Under the pieces are notes generated by a model. The model did not search any database. It was not told the DNA's origin and saw nothing but the letters and a program-made list of their open reading frames with translations. Below are positions 40,450 through 62,409 of a DNA stretch of 64,000 bases, piece after piece. Made by a program: the position numbers and the translations under genes. Numbering within the stretch: position 1 is the first letter of the stretch; every line of letters starts with the position of its first letter. This DNA is from Streptomyces camelliae (lineage in GTDB: Bacteria > Actinomycetota > Actinomycetes > Streptomycetales > Streptomycetaceae), in assembly GCF_027625935.1 (NCBI RefSeq), contig NZ_CP115300.1:5704001-5768000 (forward strand), written 5' to 3'.

Positions 40450-41106
40450 ATGGATTGCAGTGCCTGTACGCCGAGAAAGCCCTGGGATCTGCCGTTTCTC
40501 GCCGAGCCGGAGGAAGTGGCCGCGCTACGACGCGTGTTGCGGATCCACTTGGGCCTGTGGGGACTGTCGGAGCTGACCGAAGCGGCCCAACTCTGCCTCA
40601 GCGAACTCGTGTCCAACGTGATCACTCACGTCGGCCGGGGTACTCCGACAACGCTCGCCGTCTCCATGAGCGGCACGCGCCTTCGTATGGAGATCCACGA
40701 CCCGGACACCAAGGCCTTACCGGCGCTGGACAAGGCTGCCGAGGACGCCGAGACGGGACGCGGCATGGCGCTCGTCGCCGCCCACTCCGACCACTGGGGC
40801 GTCCAGCTCCTGCCCGATCGCAAGGTCACCTGGGTGGAACTCGCCACGGCCCTGAACGCACCGGACGGCCACAGCAGGAACGTGCATGTCTCAAGGGCCG
40901 AGAGTGTGCTTCGCGGCTACGACAAGCAGCAGGCGGTTGGCCCAGAAAGGTCGAGCAGGCTGAGCGCCACTGCTGCCGAGGAGACGGCGATCGAGGCCAT
41001 CGCCGACCTCCTTCACTGGCTCCGGGCACACGGTCGTGACGCGGATGAGGCCCTGGACCGGGCCCAGGCGCAGTTCGAGGCAGACGCGGAGCGCACGGCA
41101 CGTTGA
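40450..41106 (+). CDS. RsbW/SpoIIAB-like HATPase (anti-sigma-type) with TTA codon
   Basis: A 218-aa protein. Residues about 15-135 form a HATPase_c domain: N-box LCLSELVSNVITHVGRGTPT, G1 MEIHDPDTKALPAL and G2-like DAETGRGMALVAAHSDHWGV, as in stand-alone Streptomyces anti-sigma-type kinases. The C-terminal 80 residues are charged and helical. Codon 90 is TTA (40717-40719), so translation should depend on the bldA tRNA and be favoured late in development. The ATG at 40450 has AGGAAGGAG upstream; a longer frame from 40300 lacks support. Confidence 0.9.
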   Translation: MDCSACTPRKPWDLPFLAEPEEVAALRRVLRIHLGLWGLSELTEAAQLCLSELVSNVITHVGRGTPTTLAVSMSGTRLRMEIHDPDTKALPALDKAAEDAETGRGMALVAAHSDHWGVQLLPDRKVTWVELATALNAPDGHSRNVHVSRAESVLRGYDKQQAVGPERSSRLSATAAEETAIEAIADLLHWLRAHGRDADEALDRAQAQFEADAERTAR

Positions 41107-41192: not shown

Positions 41193-43058
41193 TTACCGGC
41201 TCAGCACGCTCGCGAAGAAGCCCAGATGAGGATCGTCCGGCGTGCCGACGAGCAGCGCACGGTCGAGCAGGATGTTGTTGTGCTCGCAGCTCGTCTCCGG
41301 GAGCATCACGCAGGCGTGGCAGGCGGCGAGGTTCGTCCCGCCGGTGCCCGATACCTCGGTCTCCATGCAGAGCGGGTCGGAGGAACACCATTCCGCACGG
41401 CGAACCGCCGAACGGACCGTGCGATCGAGAAGCTCCGGCTCGCCCTGAGCGACGAGACCGCCGAGACTGCCCGCCGAGTCGCTCGTCGCCGTGTAGATGA
41501 GTACCCCGGCCATATCGTCAGCGGCGTACAGGCGCTCGCGCAGGGACGCGGCGGGATAGCCCGCCTCCAGGCTCCACTCGTTGATGAGGACGTGGGCCAG
41601 GGTGTGCAGCAAGACCATGCGAGGGGTGGCCGGGGAGGGGACGAGCCGGCTCGGGTCACTGGCTCGCTGCTCAAGCACCCGCTGGTGAGCGGCGCGCATC
41701 CGCTTGATCCGGGCCGCCACCGCCGTCGCCTTCTCCCAGGTGCCGAGTCGGTCCTCGTCCAGGCGGAGGAAGACACCCTCACCGCGCACCTCCATGGCCG
41801 GGAGCCAGCGCAGAGGGGACTCGGAGAGCGGCATCTCCTTCGATTCGGTCGTCGACTCCGGGTCGGCGAGCCGGGTGAACGCCTTCAGGGCACGCACCTC
41901 GCGGAGCTTCTTGACCAGCATGGGGCCGGTCACTCCGAGCGGACCGAGCATGCTCTGGTCGCCCGGCGGGGTCTCGCAGACGAACTGCTCGTCGTGGGAG
42001 TGCTCGCTCTCGTCGTTGCCCGAGCGGAGACGCTCGTACTCCTTGTTGCGCAGGGCGCGGTAGCGGTGGTCGAAGGTGGGGGCGTCCTCGTCATGAGGGT
42101 CCTCCTCGTGTTCCGCGTCGAGGAGTGCCATCACCTCGTGGACAGGGATCGGACTTCCGTCCGGGAAGAGGAACTTCAGGACGCCTTCGATCTCCGCGCG
42201 GCCGTTGAGGTTGCGAAGTCTGTCCCAGTGCTCGGCCAGCGGATCCGCGCGGCCGTCACTCCACGGCGGAATGGAGAGCGCCGATTTCAGCACCGGTTGC
42301 CACACCGCCGAAGAACCGCGCTGGAGCGTCCGCAGGGGGAGCCCGCACTCCTGGGCGGGGGCGGACGTGCCGAGCCACGGGCGGGTGCCGCGGCATGTGA
42401 GGCCGAGGTCCTTGAGCGCGTTCCTGCGGAAGGAACCCTCCATCGAGACCTCGGGGGCCTGACCACAGGTGCACGAGACGAGGATCGAGCGGAGCGAGGA
42501 CGTACGCCCGGAAGAGCGCAGCCTGAGCTTCCCACCGCACCGACCGGCCGTCGAGGCGCCGCGGTCGGTGGAGCGGTGCACCCACTGCCAGTACGGGAAC
42601 TCGCCGAGGTGACCGGCCTCACAGGCGACGACGAAACGGGAGGGGACGAGATCGACCCCACACGTGCGGCAGACGCTCTGACCTGGGGGCGGGTTGAAGT
42701 CGCGGTGTCGCTGCAGTTCGTTGCACTCGGGGCAGGAGTGCATCAGGGGAAAGCGTCGGACACGCAGGCCGTCCCTGCTGGTGTCGTCGGACGCGGGCGG
42801 CAACCGGAAGTAGTCGACGTCGAGCAGCCGGGCCAGGCGCCGTTCGTGTATCCGCCGGGACTCGTCGGTGCTCCAGTTCTTGTCGGCCTCGTCCAGACCC
42901 GAGACCACGAAGGACTCATGGTCGACGGCGATGAGCGATCCGACGCCATAAGTGGTGATCGCCTGGGCACGGCGGACCGCGCCGCGCCGCGGAAGGGTGT
43001 GCGCGGGAACGGCGCCGTTCGTGCCCGCTCGGCGGCGACGGGCGGGGGGCGGGGTCAT
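41193..43058 (-). CDS. drmB: DrmB-type protein (DUF1998)
   Basis: A 621-aa protein of the DISARM DrmB family. The N-terminal region has AQAITTYGVGSLIAVDHES, then Cys-rich elements (HSCPECNEL, CRTCGVDLVPSRFVVACEAG, HLGEFPYWQWVH). The C-terminal third is DUF1998: RMVLLHTLAHVLINEWSLEA, then LAACHACVMLPETSCEHNNI and LLDRALLVG. In DISARM, DrmB complexes with the helicase DrmA on DNA. The start at 43058 overlaps the drmA stop by ATGA and has GGAGGG upstream. It is the last gene of the leftward four-helicase operon; no DrmC (phospholipase-D HxK) follows. Confidence 0.88.
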   Translation of the reverse strand: MTPPPARRRRAGTNGAVPAHTLPRRGAVRRAQAITTYGVGSLIAVDHESFVVSGLDEADKNWSTDESRRIHERRLARLLDVDYFRLPPASDDTSRDGLRVRRFPLMHSCPECNELQRHRDFNPPPGQSVCRTCGVDLVPSRFVVACEAGHLGEFPYWQWVHRSTDRGASTAGRCGGKLRLRSSGRTSSLRSILVSCTCGQAPEVSMEGSFRRNALKDLGLTCRGTRPWLGTSAPAQECGLPLRTLQRGSSAVWQPVLKSALSIPPWSDGRADPLAEHWDRLRNLNGRAEIEGVLKFLFPDGSPIPVHEVMALLDAEHEEDPHDEDAPTFDHRYRALRNKEYERLRSGNDESEHSHDEQFVCETPPGDQSMLGPLGVTGPMLVKKLREVRALKAFTRLADPESTTESKEMPLSESPLRWLPAMEVRGEGVFLRLDEDRLGTWEKATAVAARIKRMRAAHQRVLEQRASDPSRLVPSPATPRMVLLHTLAHVLINEWSLEAGYPAASLRERLYAADDMAGVLIYTATSDSAGSLGGLVAQGEPELLDRTVRSAVRRAEWCSSDPLCMETEVSGTGGTNLAACHACVMLPETSCEHNNILLDRALLVGTPDDPHLGFFASVLSR

Positions 43059-46000: not shown

Positions 46001-46306
46001 CGGGCCGACCTCCTGTGCGGTGCCGGACTCCTCGACGTCGTCACGAGTGAGCAGCGGGGTGGCGTCCAGTCCTTCCTGTTCGGCGGCGTCCTCGTTCTTC
46101 CTCTCCTTGGCCGCCTTGTCCGCGGCACGCGGGTACAACACGCCGGTCAGATAGCGGTCGATGGGTGCGTCCTGGGTGAGGACCTCGTCCCGGTCGTCCG
46201 GCTCGGCGTCCTCCGCGGGGCCGAGGAGTTCGCGTCGGAGCCCCGCCAAGAGCTCCTCGTCCCGCACCCGGTAGTGCTCGGAGTGTCGGCCTGCCACGTA
46301 TGTCAT
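43055..46306 (-). CDS. drmA: DrmA-type SF2 helicase
   Basis: A 1083-aa helicase. The N-terminal ~450 residues are family-specific (GVLYPRAADKAAKERKNEDA). The helicase core begins at LLWFPTGGGKTEAYLGLIAL (Walker A), with motif II VVQDELHLISGPLG (DELH), SAT-like ASTATIRRAADQGR, and motifs V/VI LLATNMIAVGVDVDRLGLMA and YIQATSRVGRAHPG. A four-cysteine insert (CPWCGTRLDARDY, RCPGAGC) is probably a zinc ribbon. These are the DISARM DrmA features. It overlaps by 4 nt with the UvrD-type gene upstream and drmB downstream, so all are co-translated. Confidence 0.88.
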   Translation of the reverse strand: MTYVAGRHSEHYRVRDEELLAGLRRELLGPAEDAEPDDRDEVLTQDAPIDRYLTGVLYPRAADKAAKERKNEDAAEQEGLDATPLLTRDDVEESGTAQEVGPAGDRRPSSMGLTFAVRPETSKIVVSARAAVYEPTNADGNPIPARRAEARTTADQRERWRRKELVLPDQLIDLTQLAPKEPIALSPEAALHVNVRRPDPATGTVTVTVTLINTQKVSERDLQDALSLFQCGLKVRAADGSTAFVERPAPATAHDPEIATSRLLHRHAPTFAVGHGCAAEWDWTPPPIGVTDAIPAAVPEVRSQFVPTVDVLLTDSNPEIDSSALSMLGLAEKSDAEVLTALEELATGYEGWIARKAAEAAALAGEPHEQPARDQVSACHEALDRIREGIRLLRTKPDLMRAFRLANRAMADQRARSAWVKGGRTGVPDPAAGRWRPFQIAFVLLCLASIDDPDHPDRRVSDLLWFPTGGGKTEAYLGLIALTSFLRRIRKGADGGGVTVLMRYTLRLLTLQQFERAAILLCAMEHMRRHTPELGREEFSIGMWVGRSATPNTLAEAGRKLDELRANLDKRLATENPVQLHACPWCGTRLDARDYEVDEDAKRMYVRCPGAGCDFTDGLPVHLIDEAVYDARPTLVIATVDKFASMPWRPATAALFNLDDPDGDTPPPELVVQDELHLISGPLGTLTGLYETAVDALARRPKVIASTATIRRAADQGRHLFARKVRQFPPAGLDARDSWFAVETPREEKASRRYVGLLAPGTSQSTLLIRTYATLLHRAKHAKTEDEVRDAYWSLVGYFNSLRLLSAAELQVHDDVVAYLELLAEREGVAVRSVANYSELTSRVDASEIPTRLKRIEKRFPDEDTVDVLLATNMIAVGVDVDRLGLMAVMGQPQTTAEYIQATSRVGRAHPGLVAVMLNAARSRDRSHYESFQHFHSALYREVESTSVTPFSARARERGLHAVIVALARILIPAARPNEGAGEVESYEHILRGRIKSVFLERVSAVTPAETDAVSRAFDEFVEWWCKEASNHSGLLFEPRRGNRHPSLLKSYDDESEDAEAWSTLWSLRDVDAESALFLEGTR

Positions 46307-48204
46307 GCGCGCTGCTCCTCGTTGTCCGCCCTCCGGTACCGGCCGATGCCGGTGATCCGCGGGGCGATCCACACGCCTCGCTCACCGAGTCCGGCGTTGG
46401 CACCGGCGGCGATGCTGCCAGTGACGGTTTCCAAAGTGTCGATCCGCAGGTCGTGGATCTCGTCGGGCCACCAGGGTTCCCAGGTACGGTTGACCTTCTG
46501 CACCTGGAACAGCTCCTCGCGGAATCGCTCCGACGCCTCACCGATCTCCAGCCCGTTGTGCACCAGCGCGTACGGCGGGCTCTGTGCCTCGCCCATGGGG
46601 AGGTCGTGACGCCTGCGCAGCAGCACTTCCTGGCCGGGTCGGACCTGTCGGAGGAGATAGGCCTGGGTGGCGACGGCGTCCGTCTCGTGGCCGGGCGGGT
46701 TGTCCCGGCACACATCGCCCGCCTCGGCGACGATCCCGTACCTGTCGTACGACCGCCACGATCCGAGGTAACGACGGCCGTGGCGCTGTCGCCCCGCCCT
46801 CTTGAAGTGCGGCAGTTCGGGAGGGGGTACGTGGTACAGGTCCTGGCGGGCGCGCGTCATCGCCACGTACAGGGCGCGGGCCTCCGCGGGAAGATCCAGC
46901 TCGTCCTCGAACCGGGTGCGCAGCTCGGCGACGGTCGGCGGTGTGAGGACGATCACCCGGTCGAACTCCAGGCCCTTGGCCCGGTGCACGGTGGAGACGA
47001 CGACTCGGGCGGTCTCCGGATCGGCCGCCTCGTCGGGGAACCTGCCGTCGGCGACCGTGCCGCGCAGCCGGTCCAGATCGAGCAGACCGCGCCCGGCTCC
47101 ACGCGCGACCCGACGCAGCACCGTCCACAGGGCGTCGGCGTTGGGCTCGTACAGCAGGGGGATCTCCGAGAGGAGACTGCGGAACCGGTCCTCGGTGAGT
47201 CCGGTCGCCTCTGTGCGGCGCAGCAACTCGGCCACCCAGTACGGCACCGGACGGTCTTCGAGTGGACGCCGCAGCCGATGGTCCACGCCGTGCGCGTGCA
47301 GCAGGCTGGAGACCACGAGGGCCTCCTGGTTGTCACGGGTGAGGACGGCGCACGTGTCGGAGAGGTTCCGCAGGCCGTCCAAGGTGAACTCGTCGTCGAG
47401 GCCGTCCAAGCCGTTCGCCGGGTCCAGGAGGAGGTCGCGCAGCTCGTGGTACAGCGTTCCCGCCTCGTCCGGGTCGCTGAGCTGCTGAAGGCGCGGACCG
47501 TGCGCCAGCGCGACCCGAGCCTCGGCGGTGGTCGCGCGGAAGTTCTGAGTGAGACGCAGCTCCACCAGGTCCTCGGGGTAGGAGCAGCGTAGCCAGTCGA
47601 AGAACCGGCCGGTCTCGTCGGCCCGTTCGCCCAAGTCCTCGATCTGGAAGCCGTAGACGGACTGGGCAGCGTCTCCGACGAGGGTGAAGCCACAACTTTC
47701 CTGATACCGGTCGAGAAGCGTCTCCACCATCTCGCGGCGACCGCCCAGCAGATCCTGCACCTCGTCGATCACGACGTGCGCGGGCGGGACGGCGTCGCCG
47801 ATCTCCAACGCGCCCTTCTCGATCGCGCGGGACGCGGCGGCGATCCGCTCGTCGAAGCCGACCGTCCCCCACTCGCCGCCTGGATGCGCCTGGAGGAGCA
47901 CCTCGTAGGCCCACGCGTCGAAGGTCCTGGCGCGTACCCGGTGGGCTCGCTCCCCGTGCCGGGCGATCCGTTCGCGCAGCTCGCGGGCGGCTGCCCGCGA
48001 GAAGGTGAGCACCAGGATCTCCGCGGCCTCCAGCGCCTCCTCCGGATCCTCGTGACCGCACAGCGCGTCGAGCCGACGCACCAGTGTGTGCGTCTTCCCG
48101 GCCCCGGCCCCGGCGGTGACCAGGACACGTGCGTCCCAGGGCTGCTCGACGACGGCCCGCTGCTCGTCGGTGAGCGGGGGACTGTCCAGGTAGACGTCGG
48201 TCAC
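46303..48204 (-). CDS. UvrD/PcrA-type superfamily 1 helicase
   Basis: A 633-aa SF1 3'-5' helicase. The N-terminus DSPPLTDEQRAVVEQPWDAR is the Q motif. Walker A is VLVTAGAGAGKTHTLVRRL, motif II is VVIDEVQDLLGGRREMVET, motif III is LVGDAAQSVYGFQIE, motif V is STVHRAKGLEFDRVIVL, and motif VI is LYVAMTRARQDLYHV. It is shorter than PcrA (about 720 aa), with a trimmed 2B region. It lies between the GHKL-helicase and drmA with 4-nt overlaps on both sides, so it belongs to the defence operon rather than to DNA repair. I see no fused nuclease domain. Confidence 0.9.
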   Translation of the reverse strand: MTDVYLDSPPLTDEQRAVVEQPWDARVLVTAGAGAGKTHTLVRRLDALCGHEDPEEALEAAEILVLTFSRAAARELRERIARHGERAHRVRARTFDAWAYEVLLQAHPGGEWGTVGFDERIAAASRAIEKGALEIGDAVPPAHVVIDEVQDLLGGRREMVETLLDRYQESCGFTLVGDAAQSVYGFQIEDLGERADETGRFFDWLRCSYPEDLVELRLTQNFRATTAEARVALAHGPRLQQLSDPDEAGTLYHELRDLLLDPANGLDGLDDEFTLDGLRNLSDTCAVLTRDNQEALVVSSLLHAHGVDHRLRRPLEDRPVPYWVAELLRRTEATGLTEDRFRSLLSEIPLLYEPNADALWTVLRRVARGAGRGLLDLDRLRGTVADGRFPDEAADPETARVVVSTVHRAKGLEFDRVIVLTPPTVAELRTRFEDELDLPAEARALYVAMTRARQDLYHVPPPELPHFKRAGRQRHGRRYLGSWRSYDRYGIVAEAGDVCRDNPPGHETDAVATQAYLLRQVRPGQEVLLRRRHDLPMGEAQSPPYALVHNGLEIGEASERFREELFQVQKVNRTWEPWWPDEIHDLRIDTLETVTGSIAAGANAGLGERGVWIAPRITGIGRYRRADNEEQRA

Positions 48205-51200
48205 GTGCGGCTCCAGAGGTGCTCGAACTGGGTGAAGGCGAGCTGGGTGTCGAAGTTGGCGATGTTGTCGCTGACGTTGAGGATGAGGCAGGTGTCCTTG
48301 CCGCCGTTCCTGGGGCCGCGCAGGCCACGGCCGATCATCTGCTGGTAGACGTTGGCGCTGTAGACGGGGCGGGCGACGACCACGACACGGGTGGCGGGGG
48401 CGTCGAACCCCTGAGTGAGGACACCGTAGTTGGTGAGCACTCGGATGCGTCCGTTTCGGAAGTTCTCGATGCGAGTACGACGGTCCTGCGCGCTGGTCGT
48501 GGAGTCCACGGCAGCGGACGGGATGCCCTGGTCGTTGAGCATGGCCGCCAGGTACTTGGCATGGTCGACGGAGGTCGCGAACAGCAACGTCGGCCAGTCG
48601 TCTGGCAGTTCGATCACAGAGTCGACGATGCGCCGGCTGCGCGCGTGGTCGTCGGCGAGCCGCTGTTCGGCCGAGCGGGAGAGCATCGCCATGCGATCGG
48701 CGTGTGTCTTCTCGTCCCGGGTCAGTTCGATCCGGCCGCCTTCCAGGGTGCGGTGTTCGACCTGGGCGAGCATGCCCCAGTCCTGGAGGTCGCGGTACGG
48801 ATCGCCCGACGGGAAGACTCCTTGGTCGAGTCGCCTGTTGCCAAAGCGGTTGATCAGGCGGCGGGTCTCCTCCTCGTTGGTGTTACGGAACGGGGTGGCG
48901 GTCAGACCGAGCAGATGCCGGCCGGTCTCGTACTGGGTGAGCCCCAACAGCGCCAGGATCTCGGTGTACCGCTTGGAGATGGCGGTGTGCGCCTCGTCCA
49001 CGATCACCAGCGCCGCCTGCCGCAGCCACGCGTATTGGTCGGTGTTCAGACACCGCTCCAGCTTCGCGTCGGTCGCGACCACCAGGTGGGGGTGATCGAC
49101 GACGTTCCCGACCTCATTGGTGCTCCACAGCCTGCTGATAGTTAGCGGACGCTCCGCGCCGACCTTGTTCCAGACGAACTTCCAGCTCTGTACGGCCTGT
49201 TCGCACAACTCCTCGGTCTGCGCGATCCACAGCAGTGGCCCCTTGAGATCGCCAACCCGCTTGACCCAGCGGATCACGGCCTCGGCGGTGACTCGGGTCT
49301 TGCCGGCGCCGGTGGGCAGGGACAGCATGCCGCGCTGGGGAGCCAGTCGGTCGAGCATGGCCGAGATGTTGCGGACCAGGTCTTCCTGGTAGTCGTGCAG
49401 GCTCGGGAAGTCCCGAGGGCCTTCGACAGTCTCGAACGGCGGCGGGGACGGAGTCCTCGAACCGGCGAACGCGACGGGCAGTTTCAGATCCGAGACGAAT
49501 GCGATGGCTGCCGGCGTACCTCCGTAGGCGACAGGCGCGTTGGGGAAGCGTGCCTGGATGTCCCGGGCGTGCTGCTGGAGCACCCCGTCGCCGTGCGCGT
49601 TGAACGCCATCTGCGCGATGCGGCGCCCGGAAGGTTCCACGCCGTCGGTCGCCAGCAGCTCGGCCTCCATCAGCCCCTCGGGGAGGCCGGTTCGGAGCGC
49701 GTCCGCACCGATCAACAATTCGATCTTGGCCACGACGTCCTCGGCCTCGCGCACCGCCTTCAGCGCCGCCTGCAGCTCGCTGTCCCGCGCCATGCGGTTC
49801 TGGTGTTCCAGCACAGCGCGACAACCGGCAGCCCCGAGGCCGAGACCGAGCTCGCGATCGATCAGTCGCAACATGGGCTCGGGCTCCAGGGGCACGCGGA
49901 CCTTGACAGTGCCGTCCTGGCGGACGGCGTCCAATGGGGAGGTGCGCGTGCCGTTGGGTGTGCGGGTGACCGCCTCTAGCTCGGTGCAGCGTTGCACCAT
50001 GCTGTTCCGGTTCCCGCTGTTCAGGCGCTGTCGCAGGGCGGGGAACAGCTCGACCAGTGGCACGGGGTCGCCTTCCGGCTCTTCCCGGGTCTCCCGGCTG
50101 ATCACGTCGGCGTAGCGGAGCATGCCCCACTTCTCGACCATCAGTTCGGCGTCCTCGGGGGTCGGCACGAGCAGCGCCGGGAGTTGCTCGGCGCGCAGCG
50201 CCCGATACTCGGCGGTCCCCACGGCGACGGTGATCTCGTCGTCGGGGCGGGTGCCCCAGGCGTCGCCGATCCGGCAACGAGTCAGGGAGTCCTCGGGGAA
50301 GTCCGCGCCGAACCGGGTCAACATCACGTAGGTGGCGCCGACGAAGGAGTCGTCTTCGCTGCGGGACACCTCGTCGAGGAGCGCGTCCCAGCGGTCGGTG
50401 GGCACCTCGTCGACGGTGGTCGGGAGCCGCAGCTTGCGGGCCTTCTCGGGGGAGATGTCGGCTACCGGCAGCACGTCGCGGTAGGCAGCGAGCTGGGGGC
50501 CGACGGCCTCCTTCAGCGGCTTGATCCCCTGGGAGGTGGCGACCGTGCCGTACTTCCGCAGCATCCACCGGATCGGCGAGGCCACCGCCTGCCGGGTGCT
50601 GGTCTGCGCACCGATCTGACGAGTCCAGTTGTCCACCACGGCGTCGTCGGGCAGCACCTTCAGGAAGGCGGCTCGGGACTCCTCGGAGAGGACTGGGAAG
50701 AGATGTAGCGGCCCACCGATCGCGGCGCCCTCGACCTTCATCCGGTTCAGCGCGGGGCGGGGAGCGCGGGTGTCCAGGCTGCGCAGGTATGCGGCGTGGA
50801 CGGCTTCGCGGTACTCCTCGAACCAGGCCTCGTCCGCCTGGGGCTGCACCCCGCCGGACGGTCGTTCCCTCAGGCCGACCTGGGGGAAGAAGGGAGTGTC
50901 GTCGGAGTGGAAAGCCATGTCGACGGCGACGTGCGGGTCACGCTTCGCGTCGACCACGACGCCGGGCAGCATGCAGTCCTCCACCGGTCGGAACCGCCCG
51001 TCGGCGGTCCGCACCCGCAGCGTCGAGCGCGGCGCGGGCACCCGCTCCAGGACCTTGTGGGCCAGTCGACCGACCCCGGCCTGGCGGAACAGCTCCCAGA
51101 ACCGCTGCCAGTCCGACTCGCTGTAGTGGTCGAAGCCCTGGTCGAGAATGCTGACGAACCGGCCCTCGACGTCGGCTTCCCGGATGCCGAGGACGTTGAG

Positions 51201-53012: not shown

Positions 53013-53174
53013 GGGCCGGCTGCCGCCTTCGTGCAGCCGGCCCATGAGCGGAGTGGTGCCGGAGGCGTGCCGCAAAACTATGGCCGCCTTCGAACGTTTG
53101 AACGTTTCTGCTGGCGAGGGCGGCAAGCGTACTCTGAGGGGTCTCCCAACCTCTTGAGGGCAACGTGGAAGAGG

Positions 53175-53378
53175 TCAGGTCGAGGGGGAGGTGTCATCGG
53201 GTGGCTCCTGGATCTCTTGTGCGAGATCGGGAAACCTGTCGATAAATTCATCTGCACATGGATGACCTCTCAGAATATCCGCCGCCGCCTTCATTTCCAA
53301 CTTTCCTATTGCAATGTCAAGTTCGAGCTGGCTTAGACCACGCTTCGAATCCAAGTCGTAGCCGTAGTACTCGTCCAT
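53175..53378 (-). CDS. 67-aa acidic protein at the head of the defence operon
   Basis: A small acidic protein starting MDEYYGYDLDSKRGLSQLEL, with a helical middle (DIAIGKLEMKAAADILRG) and ending FPDLAQEIQEPPDDTSPST. The Shine-Dalgarno AGGGGG lies five bases before the ATG (53378), which is strong evidence for translation. Base composition is lower in GC than the flanks. No family was recognised. It precedes the 1603-aa gene by 162 bp on the same strand and may be a regulator, chaperone or anti-nuclease partner; that is inference. Confidence 0.6.
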   Translation of the reverse strand: MDEYYGYDLDSKRGLSQLELDIAIGKLEMKAAADILRGHPCADEFIDRFPDLAQEIQEPPDDTSPST

Positions 53379-53417
53379 ATAACCCCCTGTTGTTGACGTG
53401 TCGCAAGGGGTTTATTA

Positions 53418-53433
53418 GGGCACAATTGTCCCC
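53418..53433. promoter_or_regulatory. palindrome in the divergent defence promoter
   Basis: GGGCACAATTGTCCCC is a near-perfect 16-bp palindrome around ACAATTGT, 40 bp upstream of the small leftward ORF. It may be the operator for the XRE domain encoded by the divergent operon. Confidence 0.5.
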
Positions 53434-53916
53434 CTGCGGGAAAATGGATGTCCGATCTCTTGGGTGAAACATTTCCCCGCAATCTAGCAGGTGCGGGACC
53501 GGTGTGACTAGTGCCTTGATTTTGAAGAAAGAACGAGTGCCTTGGCCGGGTTGCGCTGCGGGCTTTTGGCTCTTGATGCTAAATGTGGATACACTTCCAC
53601 CCCGGTCGCCTGGTCCCCCCCGACTTGTATTCGGGTTCGCAAGCGAGGCGACAATGTCGCCAGTTCAGACACTACCCGAACGTGCCCCACAATTCAATCC
53701 CAACTCCCCTTGGATAATGGGGAGTTGACCGCTCCACTTGTGGAATTCTCTGTAAATGGGTCTAAAATGGGGCAACTTGACCTATCGGTCCGAGTGGTCG
53801 GGGTGCCGAGGTCCGATCAACTGTTGGTTGACAGCGCCCGGAACGTCAAATTAGCCTCCGGGTCTGCGACATGCGAGCCGGACGCGGCTCCGAGGGGACG
53901 AGGGGAAGAGTGGCGC
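53434..53916. other. AT-richer control region of the divergent defence operons
   Basis: About 480 bp without a convincing gene and less GC-rich than the rest. It contains a strong hairpin, CAACTCCCC (53701-53709) with GGGGAGTTG (53719-53727), a 9-bp stem with 9-nt loop. It must hold promoters for both directions. The frame of the rightward gene stays open through here to 53542, but codon usage and composition do not look coding. Confidence 0.5.
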
Positions 53917-56061
53917 GTGGAGACAGGTGAGGAGTTCGGGCCCTGGCTGGCCCGTCAGCTTAAACTCGCGAGGAAGACGCAGGCTGAACTGGCCGACGAG
54001 CTCGGCTTGACGCGCGCCGCTGTCTCCGCGTGGATCACCGGAAGGTCGACTCCCCGCCCGACTGTCATGGCGGACATCGCCAAGGCGCTCGGCACGGACC
54101 TCGGCACGGTGCACACCCGTACCACCGACACCCAGGCCGGCCTCCCTGTTACCTGGTACCACCGCCCTGGCTACCCCGACGGCGGCCGTGACCTGGGCAA
54201 TGCCGCCGCGTTCGCCTTCGACGCCGACGTGCAGGTCCTCGCACGGGAGACCTGCCAGAACAGCCTCGACGAGCGATTGACGGACAGTGGCCGCCCGGTG
54301 CGCGTCCGCTACACCCTGCACGAGCTGACCGGGGAGGCTTTGGAGGCCTTCCGCGAGGCGATCCTCTGGAACGACCTCTTCCCGCACTACTCCGCCGTCT
54401 CGGAGATCGCCGGTAACCAGAAGGTCGGCCGGGTCGTGGACGCCGGAGTGCGGGACATGTACGAGAAGGGCCGCTTGGTCCTCCTGCGCGTCGACGACTA
54501 CAACGCCTCCGGGCTCATCGGCGACGACTACGCGGACGGCAAGTTCGCCGCGGTCGTCAGGCGTCAGCTGGAAAGCCTCAAGTCCGGGCATGCCGCAGGG
54601 GGTTCGTACGGCCTGGGCAAGGCGACACTGTGGGCCACCAGCGCCCTCGGACTCGTGCTGATCAACTCCACTCTGTCCGTGCCCCACGAGGGCCGTACCG
54701 AGCGCCGGGTCATCGGCCGTCTCGAACTGCCTTGGCGCGAGGTCGAGGGCGAGCCATACGCGGGTCCTGCCTGGTTCGGGCGACCCGATCCCGATTCGCC
54801 CGGCGCCATGGTCGCCCGCTCGTGGTGGGCGGACGAGGAGACGGTGGAGCGCCTGCATCTGACTCGGGAGAGCGACGAACCCGGTACGTCCTTCCTTATC
54901 GTCGGCGCGCACGACGTAGCCAGCCTGGAGGAGATGTCGTCCGATGCCGACGGCGAGACCAGCGGAGGTGAAGGCGACGAAGACACGCGTGACATCAGCA
55001 AGATGCACGGCCGTCTGGTCGAGGCACTGGGGCGTGACTTCTGGGCCGCGATGACCGGTGGAGGCGGCAGGCGTCCCCTCCTGGAGGTCTCTGTCCGTGC
55101 CTTGCGAAACGGCGAAGTGGTCGTGCCGGAGCAACAGGTGGACCCGTCTGTCGAGCAGCCCGCACGGACCCGCGCCCTGCGCGCGCACTACGAGGGCACC
55201 ACGGTGGATCGCCTCACCGAGGCGGGACAGGTGGCGGCCCGGAGCGTACCGCTGAAGCTGCCGCTCTCCGGGGGAGCTCGGGGGACGCTCGGTACACACC
55301 AAGCTGTACTGCTGGTGACCGCCGAGGAAGGGGACAACAAGGGGAAGCCCAACCAGGTTCATTCGCTGCGCGGCAACCTCATGACCGTGAAGACGGCCGG
55401 GGTGCCGAACCTGCCGCTCGGGACCAATCCCTTCCAAGCCGTTCTCCTGGTGGGCGAGGCAGCGGGTGAAACGGCCCCCTTCGCGCAGGAGGCTGAGGAA
55501 TTCCTGCGTGCGGCGGAACCGCCCGAGCACGACCGCTGGGGGCAGACGGAGGAACTGACTCTGCGTTGGTCGCCCTCCGCATACCGGAAGATCGGCGCCA
55601 TGACCAGCGAGGTCAACAACGCGGTCAGAGAACTGGTCGCACGGCCGAAGCGCAGCAGCGGCGAAGGCGGTGAGGCCTTGCGCAAGGCGTTGACCGTGCG
55701 AACGAGGCCCAAGGCCAAGACACCCGCCGGACCAGTGGTTCCCGTGCTGGACAGGCTCGACGCGACGATCGGCGACGGTGGGGAGTGGCAGATCACTGCC
55801 GAGGTGAGCATCCCGCGTGGCGACGAGATCGTCCCGATGGTGCCGGTCGCCCAGCTGGACGTGCGCTCCGGGGGCCGACCGAAGCTGGACTGGGCGGAAC
55901 TCGTGGCCGTCGAGGGCTGTGAGGTGGAGGACGGGACCCTGCGCTTCACGCCCGGCGCGCGCAGGGCGGCGTTCCGAGGAGCCACCGACGTCACCAGTCA
56001 CCCGGTCAGGACCGCGCTTACCCGCCTCGTCCTCGAACTCCGTGCCGGCAAGGGGGAGTGA
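53917..56061 (+). CDS. XRE helix-turn-helix fused to GHKL ATPase (MORC/MutL-like)
   Basis: About 714 aa. Residues 3-60 form an XRE DNA-binding domain (ARKTQAELADELGLTRAAVS, AWITGRSTPRPTVMADIAKA). From about 75 comes a GHKL ATPase: N-box VQVLARETCQNSLDERL, G1-like LLRVDDYNASGLIGDD, then GHAAGGSYGLGKATLWATS (the G-x-G-K lid). A long C-terminal part is unassigned. The start is GTG 53917 (VETGEEFGPWLARQL) with GGGGAAG upstream. The layout recalls GHKL ATPases of restriction-type operons described by Iyer and Aravind. It may be both autoregulator and effector ATPase. The next gene starts 3 bp after the stop. Confidence 0.8.
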   Translation: METGEEFGPWLARQLKLARKTQAELADELGLTRAAVSAWITGRSTPRPTVMADIAKALGTDLGTVHTRTTDTQAGLPVTWYHRPGYPDGGRDLGNAAAFAFDADVQVLARETCQNSLDERLTDSGRPVRVRYTLHELTGEALEAFREAILWNDLFPHYSAVSEIAGNQKVGRVVDAGVRDMYEKGRLVLLRVDDYNASGLIGDDYADGKFAAVVRRQLESLKSGHAAGGSYGLGKATLWATSALGLVLINSTLSVPHEGRTERRVIGRLELPWREVEGEPYAGPAWFGRPDPDSPGAMVARSWWADEETVERLHLTRESDEPGTSFLIVGAHDVASLEEMSSDADGETSGGEGDEDTRDISKMHGRLVEALGRDFWAAMTGGGGRRPLLEVSVRALRNGEVVVPEQQVDPSVEQPARTRALRAHYEGTTVDRLTEAGQVAARSVPLKLPLSGGARGTLGTHQAVLLVTAEEGDNKGKPNQVHSLRGNLMTVKTAGVPNLPLGTNPFQAVLLVGEAAGETAPFAQEAEEFLRAAEPPEHDRWGQTEELTLRWSPSAYRKIGAMTSEVNNAVRELVARPKRSSGEGGEALRKALTVRTRPKAKTPAGPVVPVLDRLDATIGDGGEWQITAEVSIPRGDEIVPMVPVAQLDVRSGGRPKLDWAELVAVEGCEVEDGTLRFTPGARRAAFRGATDVTSHPVRTALTRLVLELRAGKGE

Positions 56062-56064
56062 CGC

Positions 56065-57060
56065 ATGAAGATCTATCCATACAAGCGGCTCAACCGGCCG
56101 GTCACGCTCAGAGTGACCTCGATATCCCTCAAGCTCTCCGACGGTACCCGTGACCAGCTGGAGACCACCGCGTACTCGACCCAGCAGCAGGCCGTCGCAC
56201 TCGGCATCGCGGGCCACACCGACTGGGTGAGCGCCACGATCGGCCTCTCCGCGACGCTGCCGCCTGGGGCAAACGCGTCGGACGCCGCATGGTCCGATCT
56301 GCGTGTCCTCGCCGTACTGACGGACGGTGAGACCAACGTCCGCACGTCCACGGACCTCACGCGTGACGCGGAGGGCGGACGGGACTGGTCCGGCTCTGTG
56401 GAGGTCCTTCGTGACGACCACCTGGGGCGCGCCTCCCTCGCCGTGTACGCCGTCGGGACGGTGGACGGGGTGCGAGGACGGTCGATCGCCGAGACCGACC
56501 GGAGCTGGGTCATCGACACAGTCTCCGACGAACCGATCCGCGGGCTTCAACTGGAGGTCCAGAAAGCCTCGTTCAGAAAGAGTTCCCGGGAGTGGCTGCA
56601 GGCCTACGCCGATGCGCCCTGGATCGTGGACACCTCGGCCCGGGTCCCCACCGTGTTCGTGAACACGGATGTCGAGGGGGTCATCGGCCTGCTGGACAGC
56701 AGTGGCTCCGGTGTGGACAGTAAGGTGCGTGACCTCCTGGTGGCACAGATGGCCACCGACGTCTGGACCGCCGTGTTCCACGGTGCCATCGGCGATCTGG
56801 AGGTGGAAGCTGGCGGCGGTCCGGTCTTTCCGACGGACTGGCAGGGCGAGGTGCTGCGGGAGATGCTCCCGGACGTGGTTCCCGGCGTGCACGTGGAGGA
56901 GGCCCTACGACAGGTGCACCGCCGGCGCACCGGCGACTCGGGCTGGGTGGAGCTCCAGACCCGCATCCACTACGCGGCGGTCCGCCGTGCCGATGCCACT
57001 AGGGCGCTCGCCTATGCCATCCGCAGTCTGGAGCAGATGAACCGAGAGAGTGAGATGTGA
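56065..57060 (+). CDS. uncharacterised protein of the GHKL cassette
   Basis: A 331-aa protein starting MKIYPYKRLNRPVTLRVTSI. The first ~165 residues look beta-rich (WVSATIGLSATLPPG, DLRVLAVLTDGETNVRTSTD, GRASLAVYAVGTVDGV), possibly a sandwich fold. The C-terminal half is helical (SKVRDLLVAQMATDVWTAVF and LREMLPDVVPGVHVEEALRQ, RRADATRALAYAIRSLEQMN). I recognise no family or catalytic motif. It is 3 bp from the GHKL gene and virtually abuts the next, so it is an obligate member of the three-gene cassette. Confidence 0.82.
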   Translation: MKIYPYKRLNRPVTLRVTSISLKLSDGTRDQLETTAYSTQQQAVALGIAGHTDWVSATIGLSATLPPGANASDAAWSDLRVLAVLTDGETNVRTSTDLTRDAEGGRDWSGSVEVLRDDHLGRASLAVYAVGTVDGVRGRSIAETDRSWVIDTVSDEPIRGLQLEVQKASFRKSSREWLQAYADAPWIVDTSARVPTVFVNTDVEGVIGLLDSSGSGVDSKVRDLLVAQMATDVWTAVFHGAIGDLEVEAGGGPVFPTDWQGEVLREMLPDVVPGVHVEEALRQVHRRRTGDSGWVELQTRIHYAAVRRADATRALAYAIRSLEQMNRESEM

Positions 57061-57064
57061 TCAC

Positions 57065-57943
57065 GTGATCACTCAACCGAACTACGTACCGGAGCGTCTG
57101 GCGCTGCTCCCTACCTCGGCCCTCGATCCGTTCCTGACTGAGGAGCTGCTCAAAGCTGAACAGGTCCATGGCGGCATCGACCTCGCCAAGGTCGTCGAGC
57201 CGCTTCCCGAGGACGATGCCAGGTGGTGGGTCGAGCCGATCCGAAGCCTGGTGGAAGACGTCATGTTCGAGTTCGGGGAGGACCGCACCCGAGCCGACGC
57301 GTGGCTTGCGCCCCGGCTCCACGCTTCTCTCCGCCTGACCCGGCGAGAAGCGGCGGACAAGCGCCTGTGGAATCACATCGCCCTGGCGGTGGCCCCCGAC
57401 TACGTCGCCTGGCGTCACTTGTCGGAGCCGACAGCGAAAAGGCCGGAGAGGCGCATCAATCCAGAGCGCTTCCGTGGCCCCGCGGACCGGCAGTGCTTCT
57501 CCCGTCTCTGGTGGGCGGCTGAGCTCTTCCGGAACGGGCCGGACTATGAGCCGGTCGAGATCGCGTGCGGAAACCAGGACCTCATCCACAACGTCATCAA
57601 GCTGGAGCTGATCGACCACCGTCCCACTGCTCAGGCGCTGGTCCGCCTACTGAAGAACGGTCAGGTCGTTGTCGGGCGAGGCTTCAACGGCCTCAGCGCC
57701 GCGATCAATGCGGCCGGAGCGACCCTGATCTACGACGTCCTCGCACCGGACACACCCCGGGATCCCGTCCATCTCCGGGACTGGATCGCGGAAGCGGAAT
57801 CGGCGCCACCGGTCGAGCGGCATGAGCTTCCGAAGGGTCCGGACGAGGATCCCGTACCAGAGGAGTCTGTGGCCGCGCTCACCAGCTACTTCGCGGAGCT
57901 GTTCGAGACCGCGCCGGTCAGGGGCAGGAAAACCGCGGATTGA
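57065..57943 (+). CDS. uncharacterised protein, possibly DUF6339-like
   Basis: About 292 aa, mainly helical and Trp-rich: WWVEPIRSLVEDVMFEFGED, WNHIALAVAPDYVAWRHLSE, RQCFSRLWWAAELFRNGPDY. The middle block resembles the DUF6339 family as I remember it, which occurs in predicted defence clusters; this is a weak call. The C-terminus is acidic (KGPDEDPVPEESV). GTG 57065 is used as start; GTG 57050, overlapping the previous gene, is equally possible. It converges on the methyltransferase cassette (52-bp gap). Confidence 0.75.
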   Translation: MITQPNYVPERLALLPTSALDPFLTEELLKAEQVHGGIDLAKVVEPLPEDDARWWVEPIRSLVEDVMFEFGEDRTRADAWLAPRLHASLRLTRREAADKRLWNHIALAVAPDYVAWRHLSEPTAKRPERRINPERFRGPADRQCFSRLWWAAELFRNGPDYEPVEIACGNQDLIHNVIKLELIDHRPTAQALVRLLKNGQVVVGRGFNGLSAAINAAGATLIYDVLAPDTPRDPVHLRDWIAEAESAPPVERHELPKGPDEDPVPEESVAALTSYFAELFETAPVRGRKTAD

Positions 57944-57994
57944 CCTGGCGCTGCGGTGGACTGCCGCAGCGCTCTCCCACGCCCTGCTCGCGAA

Positions 57995-59368
57995 CTACTT
58001 CGCCGACGCCTTGTTCTTGCGCGGGCGTACCGAAGAGGGGGGCGGCACTTGGTCCTCGGGCCGCGGGCACTTGTCCGTACAGGCGTCGGCGGCTCCGCAG
58101 CCGTTGCTTCGCAGCTTGGCCCGCTGTTCCTCCGTGGCTGGCGGCCACGGCTCCCTCAGTTTCTTCAGCGCGGTGGGAGCCGGCCTGGGGAACCCGAGCG
58201 CGGCGCTCAGCAGGTGCGCACCGAACAGGGGCGGTACGGCGTTGCCCACCTGCTGGGCCTGTGCCGTGCCGGACCACGGATAGTCCGGCGGGAAACTTTG
58301 CAGCATCCCCGCCTCGTTCATGCTGAACCGCGAGCCTTCGTAGAAGACGTCCTTGCCGAGGTGTTCGAAGACCACGAAGCGGGAGATGCGGCCGGTGACA
58401 GTGGCGGCGGGCTGCTGGTCGCTCCGCACTCCACGCCTTCCCGGGTTTCCGGAACTGCCGTAGTTCGAGCGGACCAGGAAGGGTTTAGGACGTCCTCGAT
58501 GCGAGCCCACGGGGCCCGCGAGGGCAGCACCCATCGACCTCCAGGACAACGGCTCCTCGTCGCTTTCCGGCGCAGTGTCCTCGTAGAGGGGCGGCTGGTG
58601 GACCTGGTCCGCGGCCTGCTCGGGGTCGCTCGTTCCGCTCTCTCCGTTCCTTCGGTTCCATTCCTTCGGTTCGTAGGAACGGTGGGTCGGCGAAGGGAGC
58701 GAGGGCTCGCCGAGCCCTTCACGCCGAGCGATCAGCACCGCACGGGATCGCGTCTGCGGCACTCCGTAGGTCTCGGTGTCGAGAACATCGACGACCACGT
58801 TGTACTTGGTTCCGTCGGGGAGCCCGGTCTCCGTCAGCACCTTGGCGTAGTGCACCCAGAGCGGCGCCACCGCCGGGACCTGCTCCAGGACGATGACGTC
58901 GTAAGGGCGATGCTCTCGGTTCGGGCTTCGTGTCGCCTGAATGGCGTAACGGAGTGGTTCGAGGACCAGCGCGGTACGTGGATCACTGAGGGTCGCCAGC
59001 TCCGCGTCGATCTCCTCGTCACTGTCGCCCGCCATCAGCCGTTCGATGTACTTCTTCACCCTGTCCAGGGCTTGACGTCCGGCGCCGTGCCCGGCCACCG
59101 AGTACGTCTGGCACGGTGGGCCTCCTGCGAGCACGTTGATCTCCGGCGGCAGCGACTCGAAGGCGTCTCTGCGCACCGCGCTCACATCGGCGTGCAGGGT
59201 GTCCAGCCCGGCCGCGTACCGGGTCAGACACGCACTTTTGTCCCACTCGATGCCGAGACTCGGGATGTCGAGCACGTGTCCGGCAACGTCCAGCCCTCCG
59301 GGCCCTGCGAAGAGGTCCAGAACAAAGGGCGTGTCGAGGATGGACTGGTGGTGCGCCGTGCTGGTCAT
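57995..59368 (-). CDS. C5-cytosine DNA methyltransferase (PCQ-containing)
   Basis: A 457-aa enzyme that transfers methyl from S-adenosylmethionine to cytosine C5. Motif I is VLDLFAGPGGLDVAGHV, motif IV is VLAGGPPCQTYSVAGHG with the catalytic Cys, motif VIII is PQTRSRAVLIARR, motif IX is QPAATVTGRISRF, motif X is AQQVGNAVPPLFGAHLL. Motif VI reads VIVLEQVPAV: the usual ENV is EQV. A C-terminal extension with Cys residues (NGCGAADACTDKC) may bind zinc. It starts 11 bp after the stop of the second methyltransferase gene and is last in the Vsr-MTase-MTase cassette. The target sequence is unknown. Confidence 0.92.
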   Translation of the reverse strand: MTSTAHHQSILDTPFVLDLFAGPGGLDVAGHVLDIPSLGIEWDKSACLTRYAAGLDTLHADVSAVRRDAFESLPPEINVLAGGPPCQTYSVAGHGAGRQALDRVKKYIERLMAGDSDEEIDAELATLSDPRTALVLEPLRYAIQATRSPNREHRPYDVIVLEQVPAVAPLWVHYAKVLTETGLPDGTKYNVVVDVLDTETYGVPQTRSRAVLIARREGLGEPSLPSPTHRSYEPKEWNRRNGESGTSDPEQAADQVHQPPLYEDTAPESDEEPLSWRSMGAALAGPVGSHRGRPKPFLVRSNYGSSGNPGRRGVRSDQQPAATVTGRISRFVVFEHLGKDVFYEGSRFSMNEAGMLQSFPPDYPWSGTAQAQQVGNAVPPLFGAHLLSAALGFPRPAPTALKKLREPWPPATEEQRAKLRSNGCGAADACTDKCPRPEDQVPPPSSVRPRKNKASAK

Positions 59369-59379
59369 GTGGCGGAAGT

Positions 59380-60375
59380 CTAGCCGGCAGCGGGGGCTGA
59401 CGGATCCCCGTTCAGCGCTTCGGTGACGGCCCGTCCCAGCGCCTCTGCTACGGGTGGCGGCGTGGCGTGCCCGATCTGGCGGTACCGGGCGGTCTTGAGC
59501 CCTGTGATCTCCCATGATTCGGGGAAGCCCTGGAGGAGGGCCGTCTGGTCCACTGTGATCCGCACCAGTCCGTCGTCCCCGAGTGACGGATCCCACTTGA
59601 AGTCGCGGCCGGGTGGCTCGTTCCCGAACGACTTCGTGTAGACCCCCATGCGTCGCCACTTGGCCTTCGTGCCACTCGGCCCGAAGTCCGGGCCCCCGTG
59701 CGTCTTGGATCCGCCCACCAAAGTCGGTGCCACACTCGTAGCCTGGGCCGCCCAATGGTCGGCGTCCGGCCAGCCGCGGGAACGCATCGACGGCGCCAGT
59801 GCCTCTCCGACCGACACGTACTCGTGGACGGTGGGGCGAGGCAGCCGGAAGGCGCTTGCCCACTGCCCTTTGACGGCCACAAGGATGCCCAGCGCGCGAT
59901 CCTGGGGGACACCGAAGTGAGAAGCATTCAGGGCGAACCACGACAACTCGTAGCCGAGGTGCTCCAGCTCTTTACGGAGGAAGTCCCGAATCGGCGCGAA
60001 GGAGTCTTCGTCGATCAAGGTGGGCACGTTCTCGATGATCAGCGCGCGTGGCTGTACGGCGTGCACCAGATAGGCCGTCGCCTGGATGAGACGGATCTCC
60101 GTGTCGGACGACTGGCGCGTCACCGTCGCGCTCGACTTCACCCGGGGAAGACCGGCCGCCAACAGATCGACGTCGTACACCGCTGGGTGGTCCGTCGGAT
60201 CGAAGTCGAGGAGGTCCGCCTGCAACACGTTCCAGTGCGGACGGTTGGCCCGCAAGGTCCGGCAGGCGTCGTCGTCCTCGTCGAGCAGCAGCCGCGGCTC
60301 GAAGCCGGCCCGCTCCAGTCCCAGGGCGAGACCACCTGCTCCCGCGCATACATCGACAAAGGTCAGCTCGTTCAA
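59380..60375 (-). CDS. C5-methyltransferase-like protein lacking the catalytic cysteine
   Basis: A 331-aa methyltransferase fold. Motif I FVDVCAGAGGLALGLERAGF, motif VI RALIIENVPTL (ENV intact), motif VIII FGVPQDRALGILVAVKG, and motif X YRQIGHATPPPVAEALG are recognisable. Where motif IV should read GGPPCQxFS, the protein has LLAAGLPRVKSSATV, with Arg in place of Cys. The DNA reads cleanly with no frameshift, so this is a real substitution. It is probably non-catalytic alone and may act as partner subunit of the PCQ enzyme encoded 11 bp downstream. It overlaps the Vsr gene by ATGA. Confidence 0.88.
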   Translation of the reverse strand: MNELTFVDVCAGAGGLALGLERAGFEPRLLLDEDDDACRTLRANRPHWNVLQADLLDFDPTDHPAVYDVDLLAAGLPRVKSSATVTRQSSDTEIRLIQATAYLVHAVQPRALIIENVPTLIDEDSFAPIRDFLRKELEHLGYELSWFALNASHFGVPQDRALGILVAVKGQWASAFRLPRPTVHEYVSVGEALAPSMRSRGWPDADHWAAQATSVAPTLVGGSKTHGGPDFGPSGTKAKWRRMGVYTKSFGNEPPGRDFKWDPSLGDDGLVRITVDQTALLQGFPESWEITGLKTARYRQIGHATPPPVAEALGRAVTEALNGDPSAPAAG

Positions 60376-60806
60376 CGATTCCTCCCCCGCCCCTGGAGGG
60401 CCCTCCGTCGCTCTACCGCCGCGGCGATACGGAGCGCCACGTCCTCCGGTGCCTCATGTTCCCAAAAGCGCAGGACTTCCCAGCCAGCCGTTACGAGGTG
60501 TTCCGTGGTCTCCAGGTCCCGGGCCATGTTGCGGTCCAGCTTGTGCCGCCACCACTCTGCGTTCGACTTCGGCTGCGTCGCGTGTTGGGGGCAGCCGTGC
60601 CAGAAACATCCGTCGATCAGGACGGCTACCTTGACCGAGGTGAATGCCACGTCGATTCGGCGCCGCGCCATGCCTGGCACCGGGTACTCCACGCGGTAGC
60701 GCAGGCCTGCCGCGTGGAGAAGGCGTCGGATCATCAGCTCGGCGGCCGTGTCCTTGCTCGCTTGCTTGCTCATGCGCGCGGAGACAGAGGGCGACGACGG
60801 CTTCAT
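60372..60806 (-). CDS. vsr: Vsr-type DNA endonuclease
   Basis: A 144-aa protein with the very-short-patch-repair fold. Blocks are SKDTAAELMIRRLLHAAGLR, MARRRIDVAFTSVKVAVLID, CFWHGCPQHATQPKSNAEWW and WEVLRFWEHEAPEDVALRI. The catalytic Asp (IDVAF) and the FWHGCP and FWEHE elements are intact. Classical Vsr nicks T:G mismatches at methylated sites; coupled here to cytosine methyltransferases and multiple helicases, it may instead supply the restriction nuclease. The start is uncertain: TTG 60815, ATG 60806 or ATG 60773. ATG 60773 (MSKQASKD) matches the family N-terminus best. Confidence 0.9.
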   Translation of the reverse strand: MKPSSPSVSARMSKQASKDTAAELMIRRLLHAAGLRYRVEYPVPGMARRRIDVAFTSVKVAVLIDGCFWHGCPQHATQPKSNAEWWRHKLDRNMARDLETTEHLVTAGWEVLRFWEHEAPEDVALRIAAAVERRRALQGRGRNR

Positions 60807-62322: not shown

Positions 62323-62409
62323 GGGGGACACCGTACTGCCGCGCGCTGACAAAAGTGAGGCGCGGAGGGGGCGTACAGGAAGGCCCGCTATCGTCGTGCG
62401 GGAACTCAG

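Follow-up and report, generated by a model that had tools for sequence, protein, structure and literature searches.

A DISARM-like locus of Streptomyces camelliae as a possible methylation-licensed restriction system of exchangeable units

The window analysed here is a stretch of 64,000 nucleotides from Streptomyces camelliae (contig NZ_CP115300.1, positions 5,704,001 to 5,768,000), whose genome comprises 9.6 Mb in 3 contigs. It contains a ten-gene locus in which a DISARM-like helicase core is found together with a divergent trio of genes, headed by an XRE-GHKL protein, and with a cassette encoding a Vsr-type endonuclease and two proteins of the C5 cytosine methyltransferase (MTase) fold, MT1 and MT2. 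The reading that we favour, with moderate confidence, is that of a DISARM-type, methylation-licensed DNA restriction system made of exchangeable units. In effect, the presence of DrmAB and two more helicases, one of them fused to a GHKL ATPase, beside C5 MTases and Vsr fits methylation-licensed restriction. The protein families, the kept motifs, the cysteine-less MTase, the linkage of the genes, the exchange of the core and both DNA motifs are read directly from the sequence, and from them we infer every biochemical step.

All ten genes of a preliminary description of this DNA were found where it had placed them, with their starts corrected. They are given here by position in the window and strand, together with the elements between the divergent operons (E, expectation value; aa, amino acids):

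41193..43058, minus: DrmB (MZB/DUF1998 protein), last gene of the core operon; NF038324, 476 bits (cut-off 240); PADLOC DrmB, E 4e-69; PF09369
43055..46306, minus: DrmA, SF2 helicase of the DISARM/YprA family; NF038325 (DISARM_DrmAS), 1030.7 bits (cut-off 950); PADLOC DrmA, E 2e-245
46303..48204, minus: UvrD/GajB-type SF1 helicase; PF00580 (E 2e-24)/PF13361; GajB models
48201..52964, minus: GHKL-SF2 fusion (gene 4); TmtA, E 5e-39; ResIII/Helicase_C; RadD (6jde), E 5.8e-22
53009..53047, no strand: inverted repeat with GCCGGC in each arm, a putative operator or hairpin, 45-83 bases upstream of the core start codon
53175..53378, minus: small open reading frame (ORF) of 67 aa between the divergent operons, upstream of the core operon; tblastn
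53828..53849, no strand: putative XRE operator TTGAC-N12-GTCAA, upstream of XRE-GHKL
53917..56061, plus: XRE-GHKL protein (gene 5), 714 aa, Cro/C1-type helix-turn-helix (HTH) and GHKL ATPase; PF01381, E 3e-11; PDC-M33A, E 5e-21
56065..57060, plus: middle trio protein, 331 aa; predicted structure with a predicted local distance difference test score (pLDDT) of 85
57065..57943, plus: DUF6339 protein, 292 aa; PF19866, E 2.5e-14; PDC-M33C, E 7e-11
57995..59368, minus: MT2, C5 cytosine MTase with motif IV GPPCQ, 457 aa; PADLOC MTase_II, E 8e-71
59380..60375, minus: MT1, C5-MTase-fold protein of the NgoMIV/NaeI lineage, GLPRV replacing GPPCQ, 331 aa
60372..60773, minus: Vsr-type endonuclease; PF03852, E 1e-15; TIGR00632, 107 bits (cut-off 97.85); 1cw0, E 3e-11

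The helicase core and its exchange

The four leftward genes (DrmB, DrmA, UvrD-type and GHKL-SF2) do overlap by 4 bases, as had been described. DrmA and DrmB both score above their NCBIfam cut-offs, that of DrmA being an equivalog model, and the likeness of DrmA to DruE is weak (best E 1.4e-4) against that to its own family. Gene 4, whose start agrees with most of the 120 homologues listed (1580-1590 aa, aligning from residue 1), combines an N-terminal GHKL ATPase of the Tiamat/sacsin type, an unassigned middle part of about 600 aa and a C-terminal RadD-like SF2 helicase. Its best model, TmtA, covers the N-terminal part only (66-521 to 13-428 of 1538), and RadD matches it more strongly (E 6e-22) than BrxHI/BrxHII (E 1.3e-5). 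The GHKL and helicase motifs of GHKL-SF2 and the helicase motifs of the UvrD-type protein are conserved over 77 sequences, and the GHKL motifs of XRE-GHKL over 91. Thus, judging from these kept motifs, the GHKL and helicase proteins of the locus are probably working ATPases. The earlier label of the GHKL module, "MORC/MutL-like", is only loosely right, gene 4 matching Tiamat/sacsin and gene 5 matching PDC-M33A. The absence of a phospholipase D motif was likewise borne out, as HxKx4D was found in none of the 14 proteins scanned (the ten of the locus and four cargo neighbours).

Sampling of 246 Streptomyces genomes detected the methylation-and-control half of the locus in 54. In 40 of the 41 Streptomyces genomes having the GHKL-SF2 gene, the three operons stand together as a block, and every one of the 37 named loci, which were identified by way of GHKL-SF2, has all seven core-plus-trio genes; the co-occurrence expected of the three operons is therefore upheld. 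GHKL-SF2 and UvrD accompany this type of DrmA/DrmB in 37/37 and 39/39 loci, sets that were chosen through or classed by GHKL-SF2. The named loci (L009-L045) and the other locus collection share strains, so that pooled counts are not independent. Matches by tblastn that started beyond query residue 15 were excluded.

By contrast, the idea of one fixed ten-gene system is not supported. In a survey of 53 other trio loci, which used stretches of about 20 kb, 13 have a different core and one has none that could be seen, and the core also occurs without the trio. The locus is better read as a set of exchangeable units. In two of the loci surveyed, the contig ends 0.8 kb (L058) or 4.6 kb (L053) upstream of XRE-GHKL, and a core is possible there; the genome from which L058 comes (G488) has DrmA matches on other contigs. 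Exchange is also visible in a maximum-likelihood tree of 59 XRE-GHKL-type proteins, in which some long rows are of unsure placement. Core type A, that of the window, needs 7 changes on this tree, at least 5 of them forced by well-supported branches, and type D needs 4, at least 3 of them forced. For instance, one locus with core A (L104) is nested inside a D clade, and another (L098) groups as the sister of B (100/100 support in each case).

Among cores that lack the trio, L049 has Vsr directly before the core genes and a divergent, cysteine-bearing MTase. A third core type (C; GHKL-SF2/NERD-SF1/DrmA/DrmB) lacks the trio in L067-L069, and in L067 the genes for Vsr, MT1, MT2, GHKL-SF2, NERD-SF1, DrmA and DrmB all run in the same direction. 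As a separate observation, L046 has a GHKL-SF2 relative (50-52%) beside a UvrD helicase and, in place of DrmA/DrmB, a DruE-like helicase of 2135 aa. Beyond Streptomyces, two haloarchaeal plasmids, of Halobaculum magnesiiphilum (L113) and Halomicrobium urmianum (L114), carry the GHKL/middle/DUF6339 trio and a C5 MTase at most 20 kb from DrmA, DrmB and DrmC. PADLOC models confirm DrmA, DrmB (E 1e-129 or better) and DrmC (E 4e-44 or better) in both, and PDC-M33A and C match the first and third members of the trio. A Synechococcus plasmid (L116) has the trio and a C5 MTase, with no recognisable core in the 11.6 kb that were fetched. The MTases of all three plasmids retain the PC motif.

Methyltransferases, control genes and DNA motifs

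The cassette of Vsr, MTase-like and MTase genes is present as first described, with one correction: the MTase that adjoins Vsr and is accepted by the dcm model is the one lacking the catalytic cysteine. In a survey of MTase motifs over 95 loci, the MT2 of the window has the motif IV cysteine, as do 91 of 94 aligned rows, the other 3 showing a gap. In MT1, the corresponding column holds arginine in 88 of 90 aligned rows, which span core types A to D. The remaining two rows (L043 and L091) are the same place of one genome in two collections, with frame-shifted letters; both MT1 and MT2 look frame-broken in that genome. Most MT1 rows preserve the S-adenosylmethionine (SAM) motif I, motif VI (ENV) and motif X, and 87 of 89 have PTxVGGS, a motif of the recognition domain. 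By the motif IV criterion, MT1 would thus be a dead METHYLTRANSFERASE that has been conserved, no longer active as a C5 cytosine MTase. That it is an ordinary decayed gene is unlikely, as the arginine, SAM motif I, motif VI and PTxVGGS are all kept.

Among plasmid matches, the nearest relatives of MT1 are MTases beside annotated NgoMIV- or NaeI-family endonuclease genes. These relatives bear the cysteine and share the recognition-domain stretch APTLVGGS...HGGxDxGP, and MT1 rows form one clade with a support of 0.98 (FastTree; 22 of the 90 MT1 rows, 5 cysteine-bearing relatives and 2 outgroups). The recognition site of NgoMIV is GCCGGC (PMC4081073, PMC4652773), and MT1 may still recognise this site. 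The NCBIfam dcm model (cut-off 100.65) accepts the cysteine-less MT1 (117.8 bits) and not the intact MT2 (67.1 bits), so automatic names may point to the wrong gene. The best PADLOC family of MT1 is DruM2 (E 8e-87; DrmMII, 1.5e-27), although DrmA, with its weak matches to DruE, does not count as the DruE helicase of Druantia. A Rhodococcus opacus plasmid (L111 1-9254) also bears a cysteine-bearing MT1 relative, and its annotated helicase-related and DUF1998 genes lie near Vsr, a NaeI-family endonuclease and an HNH gene.

Of the trio, described at first as XRE-GHKL with two unassigned partners, all three members are present, and one partner proves to be a DUF6339 protein (PF19866). A longer start for XRE-GHKL is unsupported, as most homologous frames have about 700-750 aa. 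For the middle protein, searches of Pfam, PADLOC and NCBIfam gave no match; its predicted structure (pLDDT 85), to which no fold was assigned, has an N-terminal beta-sandwich and a C-terminal helical part. The type B XRE-GHKL is longer (1152-1208 aa), and in the one type B protein scanned (L063) the N-terminus carries sigma-70 regions 2 and 4. Proteins upstream of DrmA in L126-L128 match this sigma-70-like part, and such domains are thus tied to DrmAB cores in L063 and L126-L128.

Two motifs lie between the divergent operons. Within 200 bp upstream of XRE-GHKL, TTGAC-N8-14-GTCAA is found in 73 of 91 loci, with a spacer of 12 in 63 of the 73, and elsewhere it occurs twice in 1.96 Mb of the same loci. 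By core type, it is present in 68/77 A, 5/8 D, 0/5 B and 0/1 N loci. In the window, it overlaps a -35-like TTGACA (53828-53833), with a -10-like TAGCCT behind it (53852-53857), a layout expected of an autoregulated XRE promoter and its putative operator. In other systems, immune operons are governed by CapK, an HTH-STAS-GHKL kinase (PMC13373217). By this analogy, and given the operator at its own promoter, the most likely role of the XRE-GHKL trio is that of a switch.

The second motif was examined after a k-mer listing had revealed GCCGGCCC upstream of the core; the kinship of MT1 to NgoMIV/NaeI MTases had been found earlier. Once identical upstream sequences of type A were merged (77 to 67), at least two GCCGGC sites per 150 bp were present in 37 of 67 regions, where random windows of the same loci predict 1.1, and after thinning to 48 regions in 24 of them. 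The density of GCCGGC upstream of the type A core is 7.3-fold that of random windows. At least two sites are present in 36 of 64 regions with MT1 and in 1 of 3 without it, the latter figure coming from three loci only.

It is quite possible, although somewhat short of probable, that this inverted repeat is a GC-rich terminator or attenuator hairpin unrelated to MT1, an explanation that concerns this element alone. The repeat is strong, an ORF similar to the small one upstream on the same strand is found in 19 of 90 loci (tblastn E<1e-3), and types B and C (L067) have MT1 yet no such repeat before the core. Against this reading, perfect inverted repeats (arms of at least 10) hold GCCGGC in 33 of 37 cases upstream of the core and in 11 of 189 elsewhere in the same loci, the other seven GC-only 6-mer palindromes show no enrichment there (0.2-1.8-fold), and GCCGGC persists where the remaining arm sequence differs (L036, L094).

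A bolder, and tentative, proposal makes MT1 a reader of GCCGGC in a recognition half that strains share: bound to the paired GCCGGC operator of the core promoter, it would sense the methylation of that operator by MT2 and so license or repress an exchangeable effector half, with the autoregulated XRE-GHKL trio as the switch. The effector half would then be DISARM-like, NERD-SF1/DrmAB or of the MZA type. In one respect the locus could prove more than a variation on DISARM, namely in a pseudo-methyltransferase that is conserved and has a DNA site to match.

Proposed mechanism and relation to known systems

In the restriction system of exchangeable units that we favour, the first would be a self-marking unit: MT2 would methylate cytosines of host DNA, MT1 would read or bind GCCGGC-type sites and may help or gate MT2, and Vsr would repair T:G mismatches arising from 5-methylcytosine, provide a nick, or both. 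The control unit, formed by XRE-GHKL, the middle protein and the DUF6339 protein, would be an autoregulated ATPase switch whose XRE domain occupies TTGAC-N12-GTCAA at its own promoter. In the effector core, DrmAB would load onto unmodified incoming DNA with 5′ single-stranded ends, which the GHKL-RadD-like protein and the UvrD helicase would unwind; cutting may be due to Vsr, an unrecognised domain or a host nuclease. The ATPase of DrmAB is lowered by methylated DNA, and DrmAB is activated by, and prefers, 5′-overhang single-stranded DNA (Bravo 2022, PMC9142583). The combination of a GHKL ATPase with an SF2 helicase, a C5 MTase and Vsr is a theme known from restriction-modification systems, and methylation-licensed restriction has been proposed for such operons (PMC2292703).

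Several observations weigh against this mechanism or parts of it. In one genome (G182; L047/L048), the core is complete, and nothing in the 34 kb fetched matches the trio, an MTase or Vsr; in the 20 kb fetched for L068 and L069, a related core is likewise unaccompanied by any match to an MTase or Vsr. Either some loci can do without licensing by these MTases, or these cores are non-functional. Apart from Vsr, no nuclease of known type was recognised at the locus. A common operator for the three operons was considered and rejected, as the TTGAC motif is upstream of the core in 0/77, of Vsr in 0/74 and of MT1 in 0/85 cases. The upstream GCCGGC sites are specific to type A: although type B has MT1, a single site is found in one of five loci (L065), and in type C there is none before the core in 3/3, with one before Vsr in L067, which bears MT1. 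L047 and L049 have no GCCGGC upstream of the core either, and the repeat is also absent in L046.

A rival explanation, which we consider unlikely, is that two separate defence systems are neighbours, namely a DISARM-like core and a stand-alone trio (PDC-M33) that prefers restriction-modification neighbours. It agrees with a trio that is found with unrelated cores, once with none seen (53 loci), and that has only a C5 MTase beside it on the cyanobacterial plasmid (L116), as well as with cores that lack the trio (L047, L049; the related core of L067-L069). In PADLOC, models A and C belong to a candidate system, and they are matched by the first and third members of the trio at the locus (E 5e-21 and 7e-11). 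No published function was found for PDC-M33, and the middle protein matches no PADLOC model, model B included, either at the locus or in five other loci scanned. Against it stands the fixed divergent arrangement in which 40 of 41 cores of this type directly adjoin the trio, as does the nearness of the trio to DrmA, DrmB and DrmC on both haloarchaeal plasmids.

The locus shares with DISARM separate, adjacent genes for the DrmA helicase and DrmB, and a linked cytosine MTase; it differs in the GHKL-RadD-like fusion and UvrD helicase, in its cysteine-less second MTase, in Vsr and in the XRE-GHKL trio. DISARM, with DrmA/DrmB, was reportedly described by Ofir in 2018, and MZA (MzaA-E) is said to go back to Gao in 2020. 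DrmC, which the PADLOC definitions of type I and type II DISARM require, is absent among the PADLOC and Pfam matches listed, and none of DrmD, DrmMI (type I) or DrmE (type II) is among the PADLOC matches listed (the best 25 families for UvrD, GHKL-SF2, MT1 and MT2). DrmMII (type II) is matched by both MTases far more weakly than other families, and MT1 lacks the cysteine. As DrmC and DrmE were not found among these matches, the locus is not accounted for by a standard DISARM set that includes DrmC, in agreement with the preliminary description; the locus is DISARM-like at its core, yet not DISARM by the PADLOC definitions.

Loss of DrmC and DrmE from an otherwise ordinary class 2 DISARM, with accessory neighbours that carry no mechanistic weight, is an improbable explanation. 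DrmA does exceed the NCBI DISARM equivalog cut-off, a C5 MTase is present, and DrmC is dispensable and often missing (PMC9142583). On the other hand, GHKL-SF2 and UvrD, which are not DISARM parts in the PADLOC definitions, accompany DrmA/DrmB in every locus of the two sets described above, and the best PADLOC family of MT2, MTase_II (E 8e-71), lies far ahead of DrmMII (E 9e-19). A separate locus of DISARM type in the genus (L129) does include a gene with HxKx4D.

Other systems resemble the locus in part. ARMADA (Bell 2025, PMC12458937) has a YprA-family helicase, a GajB-like UvrD helicase in Type II and a Vsr-type nuclease; it is rejected because DrmA and DrmB are separate here, in contrast to its one-piece YprA helicase with C-terminal Vsr, and because its partners, a BrxHII-like helicase and a PglX-like MTase, were not found (no PglX among the matches listed for the locus proteins). 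The MORC/paraMORC restriction systems (Iyer 2008, PMC2292703) likewise join a GHKL ATPase, an SF2 helicase, a C5 MTase and Vsr, whereas DrmA/DrmB, a cysteine-less MTase and the DUF6339 trio are not described in the accessible part of that paper. CapK/CapS also places an HTH-GHKL protein beside an immune operon; CapK differs in its STAS domain and its partner of STAS and winged HTH, none of which was recognised at the locus (PMC13373217). Gene 4 shares its N-terminal GHKL with Tiamat (TmtA), but it ends in a RadD-like helicase and sits in a multigene operon, and it does not match TmtA as a whole. In the literature searched, which left subscription journals mostly outside, no description of this locus type, of PDC-M33 or of such a cysteine-less C5 MTase was found.

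Chromosomal slot and implications

In another genome labelled as the same species (G628), the flanks are 94-97% identical to those of the window (to 36176 and from 61319), and between them lies a different cargo of 12.0 kb (L125 2836-14855), against 25.1 kb in the window. This cargo includes an NgoMIV/NaeI-type MTase with an intact cysteine, a type II restriction endonuclease-like gene, a restriction-type SF2 helicase and a Vsr-resembling stretch (70% DNA identity over 207 bp). Alternative restriction-type cargo between the same flanks marks the site as a defence slot. A gene with a weak TPR match (61312-62349) forms the right edge of the slot and is 98% identical in the G628 flank; among the 37 named loci, 19 have it beside the block, and it is also near type D and N trios (L055, L057, L059, L061). 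Thus, different cores share a chromosomal site.

Three further genes lie within the cargo or near DrmB. A STAND-like TPR protein with an AAA_16/NB-ARC-like nucleoside triphosphatase (36296-38428) has a match in none of the 37 block loci. Near DrmB, an XRE-DUF5753 gene (39326-40189) has relatives at that place in 25 of 37 loci, mostly only 27-33% identical, and a HATPase_c_2 gene (40450-41106) in 27 of 37; both have further relatives in L063 and in the 12.0-kb cargo of G628.

If the exchange of units is as we propose, DISARM-like, MZA-type and other helicase cores would appear as alternative effectors of one methylation-and-control half. The acceptance of a pseudo-methyltransferase as an enzyme by the NCBI dcm model could mislead the interpretation of methylomes. 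The locus also supplies concrete DNA sites, the TTGAC operator and the GCCGGC repeat, on which these ideas may be tested. Should MT1 indeed act as the proposed reader, restriction systems that otherwise differ would have a pseudo-methyltransferase reader in common, and this would be a new principle.

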